From Liolophura sinensis (lineage: Eukaryota; Mollusca; Polyplacophora; Chitonida; Chitonidae): a stretch of 64,000 bases of DNA. The stretch covers positions 2,170,001 through 2,234,000 of the forward strand of contig NC_088307.1 of NCBI RefSeq assembly GCF_032854445.1. Direction: 5' to 3'. The position numbers were made by a program, and so were the translations under genes. The notes under the pieces were generated by a model, which was not told the DNA's origin, did not search any database, and saw only the letters and a list, made by a program, of their open reading frames with translations. Of this stretch, positions 39,612 to 58,471 are shown piece after piece; the stretch's first letter is position 1, and every line of letters starts with the position of its first letter.

Positions 39612-42600
39612 GTATGGCTGATATTCAAGTGTGCTTTAAACGGATACATAGAAATAATTTACCACACATTTAATTATTCCTTGTCTTAAAACTTTTGACA
39701 ACCCAATTAGTTATGAAATGACATTGTCAAGTGGAAGAACAGTGAAAAGGCGCACAGCAACTTTCACAAAATAAGACAAAAGTTTTAAAAACGAGTTCAA
39801 ACAGGTTGAAGCAACGTGAGGTGGGGGGTCTTACAAATTAACACCGCTGAAAGACATGATCTTATGGTAATTGACAACGACGTAGCAACTACCATAAAAT
39901 ATCGCCTCTAAACTGTGTTAATTTACAAGAACTCCCCATTTTGTATTACCTTGCATGAACTCGTAAGACTCCTGAAATGCCTAACAGGCTTATTTTGCAT
40001 ATCAAATTTTGAATATTTATAATAAAACCTTTTTTCAAGGCCCATCCAAGTACATTGACTAGCAGGTTTAGAAATATTTGGATACGACAGAATCATGGCT
40101 GCTTGACCTCAACTCACAGACACCTTGCCATTCTCCCAAATAGTGGGGGGAACAGAATTTCAGCACGAATAAGCACACTGAATACATCTAGCTGGTCAAA
40201 TCCACATGATAATATCTCCCCTTACCATCACCACCCACAGTTTTATAATGGTAATCGGATAAAGTATTGTTTCTTGTGAAAAAGCCTCCAGGTTATACTG
40301 TCGCTAGTGATTTTAAGACAGCCACCATTTACCTCATTGTTTAACTAGGTGACTAGGTGATGTGAACTCTTGAACTCTTAAATCATCAATAATCAAATTC
40401 CTGGACTTGTTATTCATAATTGACCTTTTTTCAGGTAGTGCAAGACTATGATACTATGAATAACCCAATTCCAAAAAAGTTTAAAATGTGTGGCACAAAA
40501 ATAATACAAGAGACTAAAAAAAAGACTGTTAGAAAAAAAAACTACAAAAGTTTGCATATAGGCAGGTTCCCAAAATTGTATGCAAATCTTTAATAGTATT
40601 GCAGCCATCTTGAAAACATTGTGGTTCTCCATTCACATAGCCTGGATGTTTTCTTGCATATTAATGATATTTGATCACACAACGTTGTGTGTGGCAATGG
40701 AAAGGGGAGATGTTAATGATGTCTCCACCATCTTAGCCAAATGGCAGGGTCTCTGACTAGAAGTTGAGCAGCCATGACTATGGCATATCCTAATATTTCT
40801 CAACCAACTAGACGTCCGTCTAAACTACTTCGGGCCATGGCCAATCCCCCAGTACACAAGTAAGTTAACATTAATTTAGGTTAAGGAATTCTTCTTTGTG
40901 ATAAGAGTAAGGTGTGATGATGGTTTGATCCCAGGTCTCCCAACGGTGTACCCATCAAGTCATCTCCTATAAAAGGGTCATGGCAAAAGAAGAACGTAAA
41001 GATAACCTTGTTTGTGGCCATAAAATCTGGTTGTTATGATGGGATGGTTCAAATATGTTATGTCATTCAAATGATGTAATATAAGGTTAGAAGGAAAGAA
41101 TTTACAAATGGAAATGTGATTTGGTCCCATAAGCCCCACCCCCTTCCCGGCTTGCTACTCGCAATATTGCAGAGAGGAAGAATTCCCTTTTCAAATGTCG
41201 TTCTAACAGGATATTATGTAGAGGGGACCTCCGTGGCCTCTATGGTTACTGTGGATCAGTGACCCAGGAGCCTCTCACCAAAGCAGTCGCTGTGAGGTAG
41301 TTCACCTCATGCCGGCTTGCTCCCTGGTGTACGTGGGAAGGTGTTCCAGCAACCTGAGGATGGTTGTGGGTTTCTCTACCCCTCTTTTAAAACTGTGCGT
41401 AACAGTGTCTATATATTCAGATTTTGTCCATGCATCTCTTCACAAACTACTGTGCAGATTTTAATGAAACTTACCAATCATCTGGACTTGAGCATGCGTA
41501 AATTTAATCGCAAGTTATTGTCATCATTACCTCCATGTGGGACTTTGCATAATAGTACTTTACTATGTATTCAGAGTTTTTCAGTGCAACTCTTCCTAAA
41601 TCACTGAACCTATTTTCATGAAACTTAGCACACGTCTTCCCTGCAATCTAAATGTTTTTTTCATAATTACTCCCGTTCAGGCAGTTAGTGCAATAATGGA
41701 TTTCATGTACGCTGTATTCTCTTCTGATGGCTACATTTCTACCTTCAAACTGGATATATTAGTAGTGCAATCATTGCACATCATTAATGGCCCATGAAAC
41801 AGTCTATATGGAGCCAAACTAAGCAACATGACATCCTATCATTTCCTTTAAGGTTTTCTTTCTTTCACTTGTGGAAATGTTGGGTGTTGGAAGGAGGGTA
41901 TTTTGGACATGTGATTCTAGTTTTGTTTATGATGTCTCTTTGATGGCTTTGTAGTGACCAGTACCGGTATTTGTCTGTTCTAGTTACTGGCTCGCCTTGG
42001 AGCTCGTCCATCTCTAAGCGGTTTGGAATCCGCACTTTTTGGATCAGAACCTGTGTCTGGCAGCGTTTATGAATTTTATGGAGGAGAAGGCACAGGTAAA
42101 ACCGAGATGACATTACACCTGACTGCTAAATGTATCCTCCCTGAAAGCTGGCATGATGTACCCCTGGGTGGGAAAGACACAGGTGTCATCGTTGTGGATA
42201 CAGAGTATAAATTCCCTGTATTTCGATTGGCTGTTATTTTGGAGCACCGGATTAAGGCAGCCATGGAAAAATCCAGTATAGTGGCGTCAGCTGCAGCAAA
42301 AGAAGAAACTAAAAGTAAAAGTTTTGGGTGCACGGAGAATGGAAATACCAATTTGGGGCAAAATGTCGATGCTTTTTCAGAGGAAGACATTGAAAGATTC
42401 ATTCAAAACTGTTTGAGAAATTTACACATACTACAGTGTGGCAGCAGTTTTCAGTTTCTCATGTCAATGTGTTCGCTAGAGAGTTTGATATCAAACAACC
42501 CCAATATATCCATGATAGTAATTGATACAATCTCGGCGTATTACTGGGTTGAAAAGTGCCAGGTACCTGACGGTCAACAAGCCATGGATTCCGTGATGAA

Positions 42601-42961
42601 ACCCATCATCTCTGTCCTGTCAGATTATGTGAGGGACTACAACACGGTGGTGTTGTGTGTAAAATCTGCTTTGTGCGTCCACAGAAGCAGTCAAAAGTCC
42701 GGACAAAGAAGCAAGGGAGATAACTCTCCTCACCCTGACTCCTCCGTGCAAAGTGCTTCCAGTCTGTCCAGAGAGTTGAATGCATCAGACCACTTTGAAT
42801 TCTTGGGAAAACTGTGGAATAAATTTGTGACTAAGAGGTTCACTTTTACCCAGTCTGCTGTCAGTACTGGACAGGATTTCTCTGTGACTGCCAGTAAGGA
42901 GGGACAAACCACAAAAGTTAAATTTAAAATTTTTGATTCTGGCATCTATTTCATACCGTGA
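39585..42961 (+). CDS. XRCC2: XRCC2 DNA repair protein, complete, two exons
   Basis: Exons 39585-39611 and 41984-42961 join in phase 0 to 334 aa. XRCC2 is a RAD51 paralogue of the BCDX2 complex (RAD51B-RAD51C-RAD51D-XRCC2), which helps RAD51 act on single-stranded DNA in homologous recombination in the nucleus. Seen: GTQLLARLGARPSL after the start (GTELLARLEGRSSL in vertebrates), a Walker A motif GGEGTGKT at 42-49 followed by EMTLHLTAKCILP, VVDTEYKFPVFRLAVILEH, and a Walker B strand MIVIDTISAYYW at about 186-197. It is longer than human XRCC2 (280 aa) through an insertion around residues 103-140. An in-frame TAG lies upstream of the ATG. Confidence 0.95.
39612..41983 (+). other. XRCC2 intron (2.4 kb)
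   Basis: Contains one SINE-like family A head at 41222-41380. No other feature recognised. Confidence 0.75.
41222..41380 (+). mobile_element. SINE-like family A head
   Basis: Reads ACCTCCGTGGCCTCTATGG, GTGACCCAGGAGCCTCTCAC, CGCTGTGAGGTAGTTCACCT and CAGCAACCTGAGGATGG: sense tRNA-like head plus the start of the body. The tail is missing. Confidence 0.75.
41984..42961 (+). CDS. XRCC2: XRCC2 exon 2 (ATPase-like core)
   Basis: A single 978 nt exon after the acceptor TTTGTCTGTTCTAG carries residues 10-334 with Walker A and B motifs, ending ...FDSGIYFIP then TGA. In vertebrates this part is split between two coding exons, so one intron is missing here or was gained there. Confidence 0.96.
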   Translation, partial: LLARLGARPSLSGLESALFGSEPVSGSVYEFYGGEGTGKTEMTLHLTAKCILPESWHDVPLGGKDTGVIVVDTEYKFPVFRLAVILEHRIKAAMEKSSIVASAAAKEETKSKSFGCTENGNTNLGQNVDAFSEEDIERFIQNCLRNLHILQCGSSFQFLMSMCSLESLISNNPNISMIVIDTISAYYWVEKCQVPDGQQAMDSVMKPIISVLSDYVRDYNTVVLCVKSALCVHRSSQKSGQRSKGDNSPHPDSSVQSASSLSRELNASDHFEFLGKLWNKFVTKRFTFTQSAVSTGQDFSVTASKEGQTTKVKFKIFDSGIYFIP

Positions 42962-50100: not shown

Positions 50101-53100
50101 CAACCTCAATGAGGTCATGACCTCAAATCCTGCGGTCAGGCACTCAAACCTTGCTCTCACAGGTTTAATTTTGTCACAAGATTTCTCAGGCACCTCACGG
50201 AGATTTACGTTGTGAAAGTGAAATGTTCTTGAGTAAGGTGTCAAACGCCAATGGTAACAAATACATGAAATTCACAAAAAGCAAACGACCAGCCTTAGTA
50301 ACAGGCACTGCAGGAAGGAGGTGACCCGAGAAGAGACAAATCAACAAGATGTACTGGTGATCTCTTGTTCCCCGAGAGAATAAGTGAGTGAGTGAGTGAG
50401 TACTTGGGGTTTAACGTCGTACTTAACAATTTTTCAGTCATATGTTGACGAAGGAATCCTTATAGTGCATGTAAGGTGCCTCCTTGTTACAGGACGGATT
50501 TCCAACGCTCTTTTATCTAGAGCTGCTTCGCTGAGATGCCTTACTGAAGGCAAGTAAGGGGCCCCACCCAAACCATTATACTCCCAAAGGGGACTGAGAG
50601 AATAAGTGAAATTAAACCAGTAATTCACAACAAAGCAAGCTTTGACCTTAGACTTTTATCAGGAGGAAACAACCCAACGCCACTGATTTACAACAATGGA
50701 TTTCTTAGGAAGGAAAAAGGTTAAGCTAGGAACTTACAATAAGGTAAGTCACTCTTTTCCTAACAACCTTCATGTTTGACCTTCACAAATCTTTCTCAAG
50801 AGGGAAAAAAGTGAGGCCAATGGTTAACAATAAGGGGAAATGTCTTTCCACAATTTTCTGCTTTGATCTTGATTGACCTTTCTCAGAAAGGAACAAAGTG
50901 AAGCCACTGATTTACAATAAAGTAGTTTCTTTCTATTGACTTTCAACTTTGACCTTGACTGACCTTTCTCAGGTTGGGGTATCTGCCTGCACGAGTGTCG
51001 TACAGCATCTTACAAGAGAGGCCCTTGGTATCCCACAATTCCAAGATGGAGGATCCTTTGAGGGAGATCCACATGCCAAACTCCCCAGGTACCAGACTGA
51101 GGACTTGATCATATGGATTGGCGGATACTGTGAAGTTGTCCATCGGATCCAGAGTTCTGTGGTAAATTAGAAGAAGAGTTTGTACCACATGGTGTGAGTT
51201 TGTACCACATGGTGTTTCATACAGAGAAACATAACGGCTTAATAATTCTATCAAAAATATATAGAGATACGCTTAGGTGATACAAGTTTCATTTTGTGTT
51301 TTTACTGGTGAGGTGACCTTAAATCTAGTAATGGAGTGAACATAAAATAAAAAATCCATCTTTTTATGTTACTTAATCTTGAAAACGTTCACATTTTTCA
51401 GGTTTTCTGATCATGTAAATATGTCCTCTACAGGGAAATTTGATGGAAGGGTCCACATTTCTCACGAACAAGATGGCTTTTCAGTTTTCACATTCATTCT
51501 GCTCATAAGACATCAAGTTTGACTCGGTGTGTGCTGAGTGACAAATAAAATACAACTTCCTCGACAACTTCTGTAACAACATCTGCAGGATTAACTGACA
51601 ACATTGTCAACAGTTTAAGGAGACAAACTAAGCAGGTCATATTGACTTCAAACCAATCTAAGGGACTCTTCCACTTCTCACCTGGCATGCAGAACGTACA
51701 CCATGTTCCCTGAGGCACACCACAGCTGGTCGTTGAGCAATGACATGGATGTCACAGATGATTTTCCCACAGGTACGTAGAACACATCCAACTTGGGCAG
51801 GCTAGAGCCTACATTCTGTAAACAAGACCATATGTTCCAACATCACCCGATATCACCCAGCATTGGAATAAATTTATTATTGTAATGACCTCGTTTGTGA
51901 AATGCACTAGTTTGGCATTGCAAAAGCCCTCATTCTTCGCTGCATGGAAGCGTTCTGACAAGGACAAAGTTGTGATTTTACAAGGACGTTTTGTGGACAA
52001 ACTTGTGGCAGTACAGTTACTTTTGTATTGCGAGAGAAGAGTGGCCAATCCAGCTTGGACCTGAGTGGTCAATCCAGCTTGGACCTGACATTCCATAAGA
52101 AAAGATATACCATTTATCCGTGACTAGTTTTTACAATAATCTTTAATAAATAATATATATAACAATGTAAAAGTATACATATTGTATGGTGTAAGTTTCT
52201 CTGTTATGACTGACCTCCAGCACTGCCAAGGTTCCATCGGCCAGAGCTGCAAACACTCTACATTGCTTACCATCCTTCAGGACACACAACGACAACACAG
52301 CATCATGAAGCTGTAACTCCCACTTCTGCTCCCTGATGACAATATCAACAAAACCATTAACTTACATGAACTTTTACATTCATATTAATTACATGCATAA
52401 ACTTCCTTTGGGTTTAAACCTGACTTTTCAACAATAGTTTGGTTGCATCATGATGCTCATGTAGAAAACCAGTCACAATATCATTTCTTGTTCTACCTGA
52501 CTGGAATGCTTAAGGTACCACTGATCATAATACACTGACACCAGACTTCTGACCTCAGTTCCCCTGAGTTGTAATGTATTGGCACCTGAGTCTGACCAGT
52601 AGTTGTCTTTGACCCATTAGCAACACACCAAGCAAGGCTGTGTTTGAGTGTCACAAAAACATGGGTGGCATTATCTGGTTTATGGGGGAGTAAACTGACA
52701 GGCCCATCGATGGGTTTTCCTCTGTTTTGGTATCTTTGTCATGCAGAATTTCCATGGAACTGGACACATAACATGATCATGTCACTGACAGTCGTGGCCT
52801 GCTACTGTAATACTGGCTGAGGGTCCAATCAACTCTCTCACATAACAACCGCTTGATATCTCCCTGCCTGCACACCTGATATTACACAATGTGCACACCT
52901 GATATCACCTGAAAGACACCCCTGACATCACCCAACAGGCACACTTGACTCCATCCGAAAGGCTCACCTGACTCCACCCAAAAGGCACACCTGATATCAC
53001 CCAACAGGCACTCCTGACTTCACCCGAGGGGCACACCTGATATCACCCAACAGACACACCTGACATCACACAATATGCACACCTGACATCACCCAACAGG

Positions 53101-56100
53101 CACTCTTGATATCACCCACAGACACACCTGATATCATCCAACAAGCACACCTGACATCATCCAACAAGCACACCTAATATCACCCGACAGGCACACCCTA
53201 CAGACATACCTGACATCACATAATATGCACACCTGACATCACCCAACACACCTGATATCACCCAACAGGCACACCTAACATCACCAAACAAGCACACGAC
53301 ATCACCAAACAGGCACACATGACACCACCCAACAGGCAAACCTGATTTCACCCAACAGGCACAAACGGTATCACCCAACAGGCACAACTGACATCATCCA
53401 ACACACACCTAACATCACACAATATGCACACCTGACTTCACCCAAAATGCACCCCTGATATTACCCAACCGACACACCTGACAACACCAAAGACACACCT
53501 GACATCACACAATATGCACCCATGATATCACCCAACAGACACACCTTCATATTATACAATATGCACACCTGATATCACCCAACAGACACAACTGATATTA
53601 CCCAACAGACACACCCGACATCACCCAATAGACAAACCTGATATCACCCAACAGACTCAACTGACATCACACAATATGCACCCCCGATATCACCCAACAG
53701 ACACAACTGATATTACCCAACAGACACACCTGATATCACCCAACAGACACACCTGATATCACCCAACAGACTCACCTGACATCACAGAATATGCACCCCT
53801 GATATCACCCAACAGACACAACTGATATTACCCAACAGACACCTGATATCACCCAATAGACACACCTAATATCACCCAACAGACACAACTGATATTAGCC
53901 AACAGACACACCTGATATTAGCCAACAGACACACCTGATATCACCCAACAGACACAACTGATATTAGCCAACAGACACAACTGATATTAGCCAACAGACA
54001 CACCTGATATCACCCAACAGACACAACTGATATCACCAACAGACACAACTGATATTACCCAATAGACACACCTGATATCATCCAATAGACACACCTGATA
54101 TCAAGCAGTGTGCACACAGAATCATGATATTTTAACACTGTATAATAATAAATAAAAAAATAAAACATAACATTTTCTCACACATCATACCTGGAGCGGG
54201 TGTCGAAAGCTAACAGTGACCAGGCAACGGTTCCAATCAACATGATGTCTGTTCTCAGGGCTGTCATACACAACACCCGAGACTCGAACTGGGCAAAACA
54301 AGATAAGATGAAAATAAGGTAATAAGCACATACCGAAAATACAGCATCAGTTTATAATAAAATCACATCGGTGAAACACATACAAAACACAAAGATATAT
54401 AAATGTTTCATCAGTAGTAAATCCATCAGTTATACAATGTATATCTATGTCCAACTTCATATTACAATGCCATAACTGGAGAGAGGAGCTTGAATCTCCT
54501 CAGTTAACTGATCAGATGCAAGATTTGTCTCCCTTCGCCTGGATGTGTTTGGGAGTTACCCCCCTTTAGTGTGACCACACATGAGTTCATTCCCTTTCAA
54601 CATTAACCTTACAGCTAAGAAAAAATGAGATAATCATATTCGTTATAAAAGCTAACTTCAATAGGAGAAGACTGTTATCAGTGCAGCCTAGATTATCACT
54701 GCTTGTCCATCACGCTCGCCTATTAGTTGGGTAACAAGCCTCATTAGAGCCGCAAACATCAAAACTTTGATTTTAAAGAGTTCAGCTGATCTTAATAAAG
54801 ATATTCATGTAATACTGCCTTTGTTCCAATTTTAATAAATTGTTTTCCAATGTTACTGCTTATTCCTTTCAGATTATAGAGGTCCATAATGAAGTACACA
54901 AACACCGGTACAGACACTCTGCAAATGAAAACCTGATACAGATATTCCAGTTCTAAATGATTACAGCAACTCATTAAACAAGGTATCCAGGAAACTTCAA
55001 GAAACAACTTCAAATTCACAGTTGGTGAAAATGTCAAAATTCTGATTCACTTCTCTTACCTTTAAATGGTCATAAAGATGACCCTTTTTTTTCGAGACAT
55101 ATTGCTGACCGTGATAAAAATTGTGCTGTTATTTTAAACATCATCTCATAAAGCTGAGGCTTCCAAATGTCTAGCGACATTTACCTGACTTTGAGTGAAC
55201 AATCAAACGTTCAGTTCAACCATCAAACTCACTCAGGTCGCTATAGTTAGAAACATGGCCGATGTCCCCTGTTGTCTAGACGACAAATTACATGTATTAC
55301 CAGGTAATTTCAATTCTGCCGTACAAAACACTGTGAATTACAAATACTTTATAGTACATAATTGTTACAAAGGAAGATTTTATTTGGTTTACTAGACTCA
55401 GTAAAGTCTTTCTCTTTCAATCTACCATACTGGTTACACCTTGTTCTCAGAGTGACATAACCATAGTTTACCTGTAAGGTTACAACTTGCCTAAAAAGCC
55501 AGGGTGTACATCATGTTCTCAGAGTAGTTCACTTTGCACACCTTGATCTCAACGAGATATAACCATGGTTTACCTGTAAGGTTACAACTTGCCTCCAAGG
55601 CCAGGTTGTACATCGTGTTCTCTAAGCAGTTCACTTTTGTACACTTTGTTCTCAGTGTGCCATATCCACAGTTTACCTGTAAGGTTACAACTTACCTCCA
55701 AGGCCAGGTTGTACATCATGTTCTCTGAGCAGTTCACTTTGCACACTTTGTTCTCAGCATGACATAACCACAAGTTACCTGTAATTTTACAACTTACCTC
55801 CAAGGCCAAGTTGTACATCAGGTTCTCTGAGCAGTTCACTTTTGCACACTTTGTTCTCAGTGTGACATAACCACAGTTTACCTGTAAGGTTACAACTTAC
55901 CTCCAAGGCCAGGTTGTACATCATGTTCTCTAAGCAGTTCACTTTTGTACACTTTGTTCTCAGTGTGCCATATCCACAGTTTACCTGTAAGGTTACAACT
56001 TACCTCCAAGGCCAGGTTGTACATCATGTTCTCTGAGCAGTTCACTTTGCACACTTTGTTCTCAGCATGACATAACCACAAGTTACCTGTAAGGTTACAA

Positions 56101-58471
56101 CTTACCTCCAAGGCCAGGCTGTACATCATGTTCTCTGAGCAGTTCACTTTTGCACACTTTGTTCTCAGTGTGACATAACCACAGTTTACCTGTAAGGTTA
56201 CAACTTACCTCCAAGGCCAGGTTGTACATCATGTTCTCTAAGCAGTTCACTTTGCACACCTTGTTCTCAGTGTGCCATATCCACAGTTTACCTGTAAGGT
56301 TACAACTTACCTCCAAGGCCAGGTTGTACATCATGTTCTCTGAGCAGTTCACTTTGCACACCTTGGAGATGTTGTTTTCACTGTGACATAACCACAGTTT
56401 ACCTGTTTGAAGAAACAAACAAAGATTAGACCATTTTAATGTGCTAGATGTACATGTTATGTGTCTCAGGTGGCTTTCAGAAATGATAAAGTTTTGAAAT
56501 GTGGGTAAACTTAAGTGTAGTTCAACGTGAAAGATTTAAAACACTAGGTGCAATTTTTTTTCCATAAGAAGTCCACTGCATAGTTTTTCGTTTCATCTTG
56601 CCCTAGTTAAATGAATGGCCAATAACGAAGATCTAAAGTAAAAAATTTGACTGAATGGCCAACTGAATATTTTACTACATTTTTTGTTCACATTTGCCTT
56701 AAAGCCATGTTGGAAAATCACCCGGGCTGGTAGCAGAAGAAGTTCTATGACAGACAGAAATGACAGACTGTAGTCCAATGAAGTGTGAGTTCAAATCCAG
56801 TTTTAGCCAGGTTGTCAGGCACTGACACATATTACACTAACCAATCAAATGGGTAGAAAGCACAAATTCATAAAATTTCACTAGAACTGATCATGCAGTC
56901 ATCGTGTTTAATCTTTTTCATTTTAAACGGTTGTACGCTCAGGCAGAACACGCAAGCCGTGTATAATCTGATGGATAAATCAGTGATAAACAAATCCAGG
57001 AAAACCTTGTCTTACCTTCATCATACTCTGCCACGCACTCAATCAACATCGCATTCTCCGAATCTGCTTTCTGCTCCAGTAGCTGAAGTTCAAAAACATT
57101 ATAAAAATGACGTGTGAAAAAACATATTTTTTTGCTAGCCAATTTACTGCACACGGTGGCAAGTTTGTATAAAGACTCATATTGCAATTTCTTCATTTTT
57201 TCCGGCCTGAGTTAAATATTGTGCTTTACATTTCTTTAAGCTAAAAATGCTTCATATGAAATCACCTGGGCCTAATTTGATGTTAGTACTGTAAAGCTTC
57301 AAATGAGAAGAAAGAATCTTGTAAGGGGAGATAACTAATAATTCTCAAATCCTCTCCTATTTTCTGTAGTAGCGATTGGTGTAGCTCATTACTTAAACTG
57401 TTACCATTTGTTCCCGCTCAACGTAAGCTCTCCTGTGCCATTCTCGCTTCTTGTACTTGTCCTTCAAGACGTTCAGGTAACAAGCTTGTTTGATGCTGAT
57501 GTCACGGCGGCTTGGGAAGGGAGCTAACTCCTCGAAGGCCGTCTAAAAATGTTAGTACATTCAATAAGATAATAAATGTTAATTATCTCCATAATGTAAT
57601 CACCATATGTACTCTAACAGTTATTGGTCAATCTGGTTATTTGGAGAATAACTGATTCATTTATTTATTTGACTGGAGTTTTACATCGTACTCAAGAATA
57701 TCTGACACATATTACATCGGAAGAATATATGAGCTGAAAGACTGGTCAGGGGAGTTTCAGCTGAGGATGTCTACACTGCTCTTCCTGCAAATGTCCCAAT
57801 AACCTTTTAGCTCAACCACTATACACCTGTATTCATGAAATAAGGCAACTTTGTTCTATATCATTGAATAAGATCTTGACAGTTTTAGTTCTGAAGTGAA
57901 TCATTTTCTTGTAAAAAGATATTTCCTTGACACAACCAAAAACACATAGCCCTATGTGTTTTGCTTAACTTTCCTTAACTTGAATCATGCATGGCTGTAA
58001 AAAGTTTACCCTTTGTGTTGCTATAAAACTTTGTTTAAACTCTTTAACATCAATGATTAAAATTTTTTTGACTCTCACATTTTGGTAAGGTTTTGTTTTC
58101 AATGTGACTTTTTCTGATTAAAAAAGTTTTCATCAATGCCTTAGATGTGTGCAACTAGATTAAAGACAAATGGTTAGTGTCAGCATGATCTTTTATAGCA
58201 CGCAACCAAGATCTATTATTAAAAACACATGTCTAAAATATGGCGGACAAAAGTAAGTGTCTGCGGACAAAAGTAAGCGTCTGCCACATACTTTGATCAA
58301 TCCATCGATGTCATAGGTGAGCTTAGCGCATGCCTTCAGGTGGCGCATGACGCTGATTGTGTCCGTCTTCTGCAGCAAATCATGCTGGTGGACCTTCAGG
58401 ATTGCCAGCGAAAAGCGAAACAGCACTTTGGGCCCCTCCAGCAAAAAACAGTCCCATATCCTCAACAGTGT
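46934..58471 (-). CDS. TBC (Rab-GAP) and beta-propeller-like protein, 3' part
   Basis: Exons: 58292-58471, 57405-57542, 57016-57082, 56311-56402, 54191-54288, 52215-52332, 51682-51815, 50964-51156, 48109-49841, 47505-47592, 46934-47086. They sum to 2994 nt (997 aa plus stop), every junction in phase. Residues 1-60 are the end of a TBC domain (RIWDCFLLEGPKVLFRFSLA), the fold that stimulates GTP hydrolysis on Rab proteins; the upstream arginine/glutamine finger motifs are not in this window. About 61-129 is a helical, basic linker. About 130-370 and 918-960 look like propeller strands (IMLIGTVAWSLLAFDTRS, VFAALADGTLAVLE, LWCASGNMVYVLHAR, GMWISLKGSSILELWD, NTVMVGTGDGVLITFEV). Between them lies a roughly 540-residue acidic, Ser/Asn-rich insertion. 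I do not recognise a human gene with this order. Any vesicle-traffic role is inference. Confidence 0.85.
47139..47177. repeat. TA microsatellite
   Basis: An almost pure run of TA dinucleotides in the last TBC-gene intron, close to the acceptor of the terminal exon. Confidence 0.95.
47505..47592 (-). CDS. TBC gene exon j (last blade)
   Basis: SVKQETVIVSCAGCHGDDEA then VLRWRKDGNE. Phase 2 in, phase 0 out at GTAGGC. Confidence 0.92.
48109..49841 (-). CDS. TBC gene exon i (blade plus giant disordered insertion)
   Basis: 1733 nt, residues 341-918. Starts with a blade (EDDSYFNKARITSIYSHGNT, VMVGTGDGVLITFEV), then runs into a low-complexity region rich in Ser, Asp, Glu and Asn, including a poly-Asn run. 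A basic cluster KLRSRPLKIRKRSKKL lies near its C-terminal third and could be a nuclear-localisation or phosphoinositide-binding patch. The end (LQAKVKISDKPVKCLLPTR) re-enters folded sequence. Donor GTTTGT. Confidence 0.95.
50200..50262 (+). mobile_element. SINE-like family A tail, diverged
   Basis: GTGAAAGTGAAATGTTCTTG then AGTAAGGTGTCAAACGCCAA. Confidence 0.5.
50380..50590 (-). mobile_element. SINE-like family B tail
   Basis: Begins with GAGT repeats (GTGAGTGAGTGAGTGAG), then GGGGTTTAACGTCGTACTTA and TTTTTCAGTCATATG, the antisense of the family B tail. Lies in a TBC-gene intron. Confidence 0.65.
50964..51156 (-). CDS. TBC gene exon h (propeller blade)
   Basis: TLDPMDNFTVSANPYDQVLS, LVPGEFGMWISLKGSSILEL, WDTKGLSCKMLYDTRAGRYP, NLRK. 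Phase 0 exit at GTCAGT. Confidence 0.93.
51177..51215. repeat. Short direct duplication
   Basis: GAGTTTGTACCACATGGTGT is present twice in tandem, just upstream of TBC exon h on the minus strand. Confidence 0.8.
51682..51815 (-). CDS. TBC gene exon g (propeller blade)
   Basis: NVGSSLPKLDVFYVPVGKSS, VTSMSLLNDQLWCASGNMVY, VLHA. Phase 2 exit at GTGAGA. Confidence 0.92.
52035..52088. repeat. Short direct duplication
   Basis: CAATCCAGCTTGGACCTGA occurs twice, 23 bp apart. Confidence 0.8.
52215..52332 (-). CDS. TBC gene exon f (propeller blade)
   Basis: EQKWELQLHDAVLSLCVLKD then CRVFAALADGTLAVLE. Phase 0 exit at GTCAGT. Confidence 0.92.
52860..54115. repeat. 23 bp minisatellite in a TBC-gene intron
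   Basis: About 50 copies of a 23 bp unit, CACCTGATATCACCCAACAG plus ACA. Variants use GACATC, GATATTAGCC or CAATATGCAC. It fills most of the intron between exons e and f. Confidence 0.93.
54191..54288 (-). CDS. TBC gene exon e (propeller strand)
   Basis: FESRVLCMTALRTDIMLIGT then VAWSLLAFDTRS, a typical propeller blade. Phase 0 in, phase 2 out at GTATGA. Confidence 0.9.
55430..56310 (-). repeat. Tandem array derived from TBC exon d
   Basis: About eight units of 102-103 bp. Each holds, on the minus strand, an acceptor-like CTTACAG, an exon copy (GKLWIWHTENKVCKVNCSEN, MMYNLALE) and a donor GTAAGTTGTAAC. The sequence between one donor and the next acceptor is only about 19 nt, too short to be an intron. 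The read-through frame stays open where units are 102 bp but shifts in those with an extra T. Three unit types recur as a 308 bp block (55582-55889 and 55890-56197). The last unit near 55490 is degenerate and has GC in place of GT at the donor. Confidence 0.85.
56311..56402 (-). CDS. TBC gene exon d (parent of the tandem exon array)
   Basis: Residues 129-159: GKLWLCHSENNISKVCKVNC then SENMMYNLALE. Acceptor CAAACAG, donor GTAAGTTG, phase 1 in and phase 0 out, so it joins exons c and e in frame. The adjoining array at 55430-56310 is made of copies of this exon lacking nine bases (around NIS). Confidence 0.85.
57016..57082 (-). CDS. TBC gene exon c
   Basis: LLEQKADSENAMLIECVAEY then DE and the first base of a Gly codon; exits in phase 1 at GTAAGA. 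The next real exon starts in phase 1 with GT AAA CTG. Confidence 0.87.
57405..57542 (-). CDS. TBC gene exon b (post-TBC helix)
   Basis: Residues 61-106: AFEELAPFPSRRDISIKQAC then a Lys/Arg/Glu-rich helix KDKYKKREWHRRAYVEREQ. Phase 0 on both sides, donor GTAACA. Confidence 0.9.
57655..57710 (-). mobile_element. SINE-like family A tail fragment
   Basis: ATTTATTTATTTGACTGGAG then TACTCAAGAATATC, in a TBC-gene intron. Confidence 0.65.
58292..58471 (-). CDS. TBC gene exon a (end of TBC domain)
   Basis: Residues 1-60 of the visible part. RIWDCFLLEGPKVLFRFSLA then ILKVHQHDLL is the hallmark C-terminal block of TBC domains. Phase 0 on both sides, donor GTATGT. The preceding exon was not found in 58472-64000. 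Confidence 0.93.

Follow-up and report, generated by a model that had tools for sequence, protein, structure and literature searches.

We think it highly probable that the tandem array adjoining exon d of a gene on the minus strand of this window (the whole 64,000-nucleotide stretch of chiton DNA that was analysed) is a minisatellite seeded by that exon, of the "mirage" kind known from lancelets, here carrying a whole exon and mostly silent. A first-pass annotation of the same stretch had offered an exon-seeded minisatellite as its cautious option, and the anatomy, divergence, splice signals, and reading frames of the copies support this as the best reading.

Nine exons can be joined in frame in a partial gene model that begins at exon a (Table 1). 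The predicted protein matches the end of a RabGAP-TBC domain (Pfam, 3.8e-7) followed through residues 120-378 of the query by an LRRK2-like beta-propeller (Beta-prop_LRRK2, 1.1e-20); exon d lies inside the propeller match and encodes a segment near its start. The d-e intron measures 2022 nt with the array included, and the shortest of the eight introns in the model is 322 nt. Two further features of the window may be recorded here: a long minisatellite in intron e-f (52870-54103, minus strand), with units of about 23 bp for which TRF also gives 46 and 69, has two donor-like sites but exon seeding was not seen in it; and an open frame of 325 residues that contains a GEGTGKTE nucleotide-binding motif, which we take to be perhaps an XRCC2/RecA-like single exon, lies on the plus strand at 41984-42961.

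Table 1. Exons of the partial gene model and components of the array in the intron after exon d, in coordinates of the window.
Feature	Position	Strand	Remarks
Exon a	58471-58292	minus	in-frame join
Exon b	57542-57405	minus	in-frame join
Exon c	57082-57016	minus	upstream neighbour of exon d; leaves phase 1; in-frame join
Exon d (parent)	56402-56311	minus	92 nt; enters phase 1, leaves phase 0
Exon e	54288-54191	minus	downstream neighbour of exon d; entered in phase 0
Exon f	52332-52215	minus	in-frame join
Exon g	51815-51682	minus	in-frame join
Exon h	51156-50964	minus	in-frame join
Exon i	49841-48072	minus	in-frame join
First spacer, gtaagttgtaaccttacag	56292..56310	minus	flanks exon d on its donor side and c1 on its acceptor side
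Copy c1	56209..56291	minus	83 nt; open in parent's frame; donor gtaagt
Copy c2	56106..56189	minus	84 nt (+1 A); donor gtaagt
Copy c3	56004..56086	minus	83 nt; open in parent's frame; donor gtaagt; identical to c6
Copy c4	55901..55984	minus	84 nt (+1 A); donor gtaagt
Copy c5	55798..55881	minus	84 nt (+1 A); donor gtaagt
Copy c6	55696..55778	minus	83 nt; open in parent's frame; donor gtaagt
Copy c7	55593..55676	minus	84 nt (+1 A); donor gcaagt
Copy c8	55491..55573	minus	83 nt; most diverged copy; ends in TAG; donor gcaagt
Copy c9	55436..55471	minus	truncated after ~36 nt; right array edge
Duplicated three-unit block	55574..56189	minus	c2-c4 (56189-55882) and c5-c7 (55881-55574), 308 bp each

TRF places a 102/103-bp array at 55436-56365, with a score of 1629 for the period of 308. 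Read from 56291 down to 55436, the array consists of nine copies of exon d, eight of them full and one truncated, on the same strand as exon d and adjoining it, with unit starts at 56291, 56189, 56086, 55984, 55881, 55778, 55676, 55573, and 55471, each 102 or 103 from the next. The unit is a copy of the whole exon plus 19 nt of intron, repeated head to tail across the exon-intron boundaries, and a 19-nt spacer like gtaagttgtaaccttacag follows each of c1-c8, with a changed middle after c5 and a gc start after c7 and c8. Nine nucleotides of exon d are absent from all nine copies. At its left edge the array has ACAG in common with the exon d acceptor, and at its right edge TGTAACC in common with the spacer; such microhomologies would fit slippage or template switching. 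The two 308-bp blocks differ by 7 mismatches. Much of this had been anticipated in the first-pass annotation, which joined exon d in frame to its neighbours, described about eight copies with acceptor, coding part, and donor at a spacing of about 19 nt, and read the duplicated three-unit block as a mark of stepwise growth; all of this is borne out, with the truncated c9 in addition, and the block duplication supports stepwise growth.

Fifteen arrays with a period of at least 8 (score at least 80) cover 6177 of the 64,000 bp of the window, and the exon d array is the only one among them with more than two donor-like sites. A search with the unit through the genome assembly (G000, representing one haplotype; 609,464,459 bases in 632 contigs) returned four matches, all within the exon d array, which gives no support to a dispersed repeat, although a missing match does not prove that the unit is rare.

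The full copies are 85-96% identical to exon d, a likeness that is not due to chance. Among themselves they range from c3 and c6, which are 100% identical, and c4 and c7, at 98.1%, to c8, which is only 81-85% identical to the other copies: the internal copies have been homogenised and the edge copy has diverged, as in the lancelet mirages. Nucleotide diversity (pi) among c1-c8 is.083,.114, and.101 at codon positions 1, 2, and 3, so that the third-position excess we looked for among these copies is absent, and there is no sign of coding selection on them. The spacer is the least variable part of the unit (pi.049, with 3 of 19 columns varying among c1-c8), which could hint at retained splice signals, as a splicing function would predict the same.

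All eight full copies are entered at an AG, and the exit is GT in six and GC in two (c7 and c8). The donors of c1-c6 are all identical to the parental GAGgtaagt, placing seven identical consensus donors in a row (exon d and c1-c6); donor scores came from an approximate position table, so that only equality with the parent is informative, but the pyrimidine counts that describe the acceptors are unaffected. These counts are 8 of 18 in seven of the full copies and 6 of 18 in c6, compared with 14 of 18 for exon d and 10-15 of 18 for the eight other acceptors of the gene; the copy acceptors are poorer than that of exon d, yet the gap to the weakest acceptor of the gene (10 of 18) is small. The usual copy acceptor is preceded by AG dinucleotides at 14 and 19 nt, a proximity that leaves little room for a branch point.

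The spacing and the frames of the copies bear on several claims that the first-pass annotation had made about splicing. From donor to acceptor, neighbouring copies are 19 nt apart, too short for an ordinary animal intron, but skipping one copy widens the distance to 121-122 nt, and skipping more widens it further, so that length is no bar to joint use of copies: copy-to-copy splicing, which had been called impossible, is so for neighbours but not for skip-one pairs, and the mutually exclusive choice said to follow from it is not forced, some joint paths being in frame. Entry in phase 1 and exit in phase 0, attributed to every copy, holds for those of 83 nt but not for the four of 84 nt (c2, c4, c5, and c7), and by frame the replacement of exon d by any one intact copy shrinks to c1, c3, and c6, the only three of the eight full copies open in the parent's phase, whose acceptors are also poorer. 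The one-base insertions that were thought to break some copies are indeed present in four of the eight, but a +1 copy that is entered in phase 0 after another copy also leaves in phase 0. The 19-nt spacer (1 mod 3) contains no stop in the parental frame, and unspliced exon d, spacer, and c1 form one ORF. When all paths are enumerated, 5 of 45 with one segment (d; d..c1; c1; c3; c6) and 22 of 210 with two segments reach exon e in frame without a stop; none of the single exons that run from the exon d acceptor to a donor beyond c1 is in frame.

Could the copies nevertheless be used? A pool of alternative exons, in which c1, c3, or c6 would replace exon d and leave the exon-d segment of the propeller 3 residues shorter, would draw on the right phase of these three copies, their parental donors, and the identity of c3 and c6, but would have to work with purine-richer acceptors crowded by upstream AGs, and it sits poorly with the flat distribution of changes over codon positions and with an extra base in half of the full copies; we consider it quite unlikely, and as far as the sequence can tell the alternative-exon idea appears to lack support. 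Alternative 5′ splice sites are unlikely too, although not to quite the same degree: exon d might sometimes be extended to the c1 donor, a gain of 34 in-frame residues, or to later donors, with a frameshift, and the row of seven identical donors, the open spacer, and the right phase in which d..c1 leaves all speak for such use. Against it, splicing generally prefers the nearest donor and the first one here is equally strong, the 34 added residues would duplicate a segment of the propeller, and beyond c1 the frame is lost.

The most elaborate scheme would treat the two copy lengths as combinatorial cassettes, with 83-nt copies (phase 1 to 0) taking the place of exon d, and copies of 84 nt (phase 0 to 0) added after another copy, through 121-nt introns that skip one copy. 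The 22 two-segment paths that are in frame and free of stops speak for such a scheme, but so small a share needs no design, a slippage base (AAA to AAAA) together with the block duplication can explain the mixed lengths, and the poorer acceptors weigh here as well; we regard the scheme as extremely improbable. A coding repeat of 34 residues, suggested by a 102-nt period (34 codons) and an open spacer, is ruled out by the extra base in c2, which breaks the frame. An RNA structure dependent on the copies was likewise rejected: the donor region folds no better than its shuffles (z 0.55), and the fold of a single unit is weak (z -1.55, with 17 of 200 shuffles as good).

We therefore return to a mostly silent, exon-seeded minisatellite, whose history might have run as follows. 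A stretch of exon d reaching across its exon-intron boundaries would have been copied in head-to-tail orientation into the next intron, with a difference of 9 nt between this first copy and its parent that arose either by loss from the copy or by gain in the parent; the resulting 102/103-bp unit, a whole exon with 19 nt of intron, would then have been repeated by unequal exchange or slippage; and a block of three units would have been duplicated later. The gene would still splice c-d-e, entering exon d at its own acceptor and leaving it at 56311; the copies, presumably neutral, would be removed with the 2-kb intron. By analogy with lancelets, regular c-d-e splicing with the copies unused is most likely. 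Several observations count against complete silence, namely the parental donors kept in c1-c6, the low diversity of the spacer, acceptors that come near the weakest of the gene, and the three fully open copies. Since the GT donor is kept in six of the eight copies but all of the acceptors are poorer, any leak would most plausibly involve a later donor rather than an exon swap, and might take the form of exon d, spacer, and c1 read together, with 34 extra residues in frame.

Mirages were described as minisatellite-like tandem duplications of exon-intron boundaries in the lancelet Adh3 and globin genes, with many units carrying AG/GT signals and with edge units excluded from homogenisation (excerpts of PMC3087553); unit lengths are given as 10-160 bp (excerpts of PMC3087553 and PMC3902484). 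The Adh3 data and globin RT-PCR suggest that regular splicing is undisturbed, and mirages were proposed as a source of new introns (excerpts of PMC3087553). Excerpts of PMC3902484 add troponin C as a lancelet case and describe, in lancelet PGBD5, tandem repeats of 60 bp and 108 bp over exons 3 and 4 at splice sites, whose copy numbers differ between two sequence versions (2 and 3, or 7 and 6) and in which a gene predictor calls an unconfirmed exon.

The chiton array has each of the mirage features that we tested: it is a tandem repeat spanning exon-intron boundaries, it carries AG/GT signals, and it is homogenised inside and diverged at its edge. In the portions of the literature cited above, the lancelet mirages of Adh3, the globins BflGb6 and BflGb9, and troponin C likewise combine an intragenic tandem of a boundary with AG/GT signals, internal homogenisation, and edges left out. 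The chiton array differs in its mollusc host and in repeating a whole exon with both splice sites, whereas the repeated part holds one boundary in the two lancelet globin cases as excerpted. The PGBD5 repeats resemble it in having a unit near 100 bp that coincides with or overlaps splice sites, but the excerpted text of PMC3902484 does not describe them as whole-exon units.

Other known systems are more distant. Mutually exclusive tandem exons also lie as copies beside their parent, some of them phase-matched, but the chiton copies have 19-nt gaps, poorer acceptors, extra bases, and no coding constraint. Intron gain by tandem genomic duplication with AGGT likewise brings a GT...AG spacer between two copies, but here the spacer is 19 nt long, too short for an ordinary animal intron. 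As described in excerpts, intronic minisatellites near alternative exons of C. elegans are not exon copies (PMC4039745), and a 27-bp intronic minisatellite of abalone is not placed on an exon boundary (PMC6905558). In the part of the literature that we searched, mostly as listings, we found no published case of a minisatellite on a mollusc exon-intron boundary.

Arrays that copy exon boundaries recur in this genome, in which a search for donors in tandem revealed many arrays. We picked 31 loci for tandem donor motifs (16, then 15), all in the first 6.8 Mb of contig C1 (96,433,062 bases), and sent to Pfam 20 ORFs at their edges, chosen as the most exon-like, so that the sample is not blind; 10 of the 20 gave matches at E up to 0.0011 (WD40, DUF4457, Branch, Prominin, PTR2, Ank_2, Antistasin, SUFU, SNF2-rel_dom, and Alpha_L_fucos), and the other 10 gave no match. 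At eight loci (L009, L013, L017, L018, L021, L023, L025, and L030) the array copies the 3′ end of an exon recognised by Pfam, over 14 to about 71 nt and together with its donor, the longest being L018 as measured from the array edge at 1079 to the donor at 1150. L008 and L033 only abut an exon, with 2-3 exon nucleotides shared and a Pfam match below the gathering score; L029 has no TRF array, and no donor lies close to the start of the array that TRF chose in L016. Within the reach of the homology test, the other arrays contain only an exon end, whereas the exon d array holds the whole exon. The first donor at such loci is presumably the one used. Among individual loci, L009 and L028 (G000:C1:2772200-2775000) are two different exon-end arrays within about 2 kb, the former with a DUF4457 match and the latter with no Pfam match, beside exons that we take to look like KATNIP; and L018 (G000:C1:6735400-6738200) is a 96-bp (32-codon) array seeded by the exon end of a POT-family transporter, open in the frame of the exon for several units within an ORF of 284 residues.

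It is possible, but in our view doubtful, that 5′ splice sites are preferred birthplaces of minisatellites in this chiton, with many arrays starting where an exon ends and copying its donor, and that the whole-exon array is a living intermediate between a mirage and a new exon or intron. The enrichment of tandem donors is suggestive only. Genome-wide, MAGGTRAGT gave 3331 tandem matches (66-96 nt gap) against 33494 single matches (9.9%), compared with 652 against 24251 (2.7%), 1666 against 28939 (5.8%), and 1404 against 23038 (6.1%) for three rearranged control motifs, all of these being counts that clump by array. Counted as clusters in one stretch of one contig (C1:0-5.27 Mb) among the matches listed, there were 21 for the donor motif, whereas two controls had 3 and 5 (binomial p 0.00023), or 14 versus 3 and 4 (p 0.009) after dropping clusters with one listed match (7 of 21 donor clusters and 1 of 5 in a control). 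At a gap of 28-58 nt, CAGGTAAGT showed no clear excess over its control (585 of 9807, or 6.0%, versus 250 of 4854, or 5.2%); the pattern GGTAAGT..CAG..GGTAAGT was found 2437 times and 1738 times when read backwards, singles not being counted. Donor-bearing tandem matches are dense near the end of C1, with 100 of the 3331 in the first 5.3 Mb, which is under 1% of the genome.

Eleven control loci (L034-L044) represent nine arrays, L036/L037 and L039/L040 each being read as the two ends of one array. Eight of these arrays supplied the 10 edge ORFs that went to Pfam, with none from L042 and several other listed ORFs left out. One of the nine arrays touches a clear exon (L044, SPG48, 1.8e-14), and L038 gave a weak match (0.03); the controls are thus not free of exon-edge arrays. 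In L044 (G000:C1:4609500-4612800) it is the 3′ edge of the array that touches the open frame matching SPG48 (AP-5), so that amplification may also affect boundaries on the acceptor side.

The proposal that mirages supply the raw material of new introns and exons has so far come from a small number of lancelet genes. It could be tested in a mollusc genome that has several mirages, one of them composed of whole exons with their two splice sites: one could ask which of the copies is ever spliced, and by what means the spliceosome passes over seven consecutive donors of identical consensus sequence. Should 5′ splice sites indeed be favoured seeds, a mutational mechanism linked to the ends of exons would be indicated.
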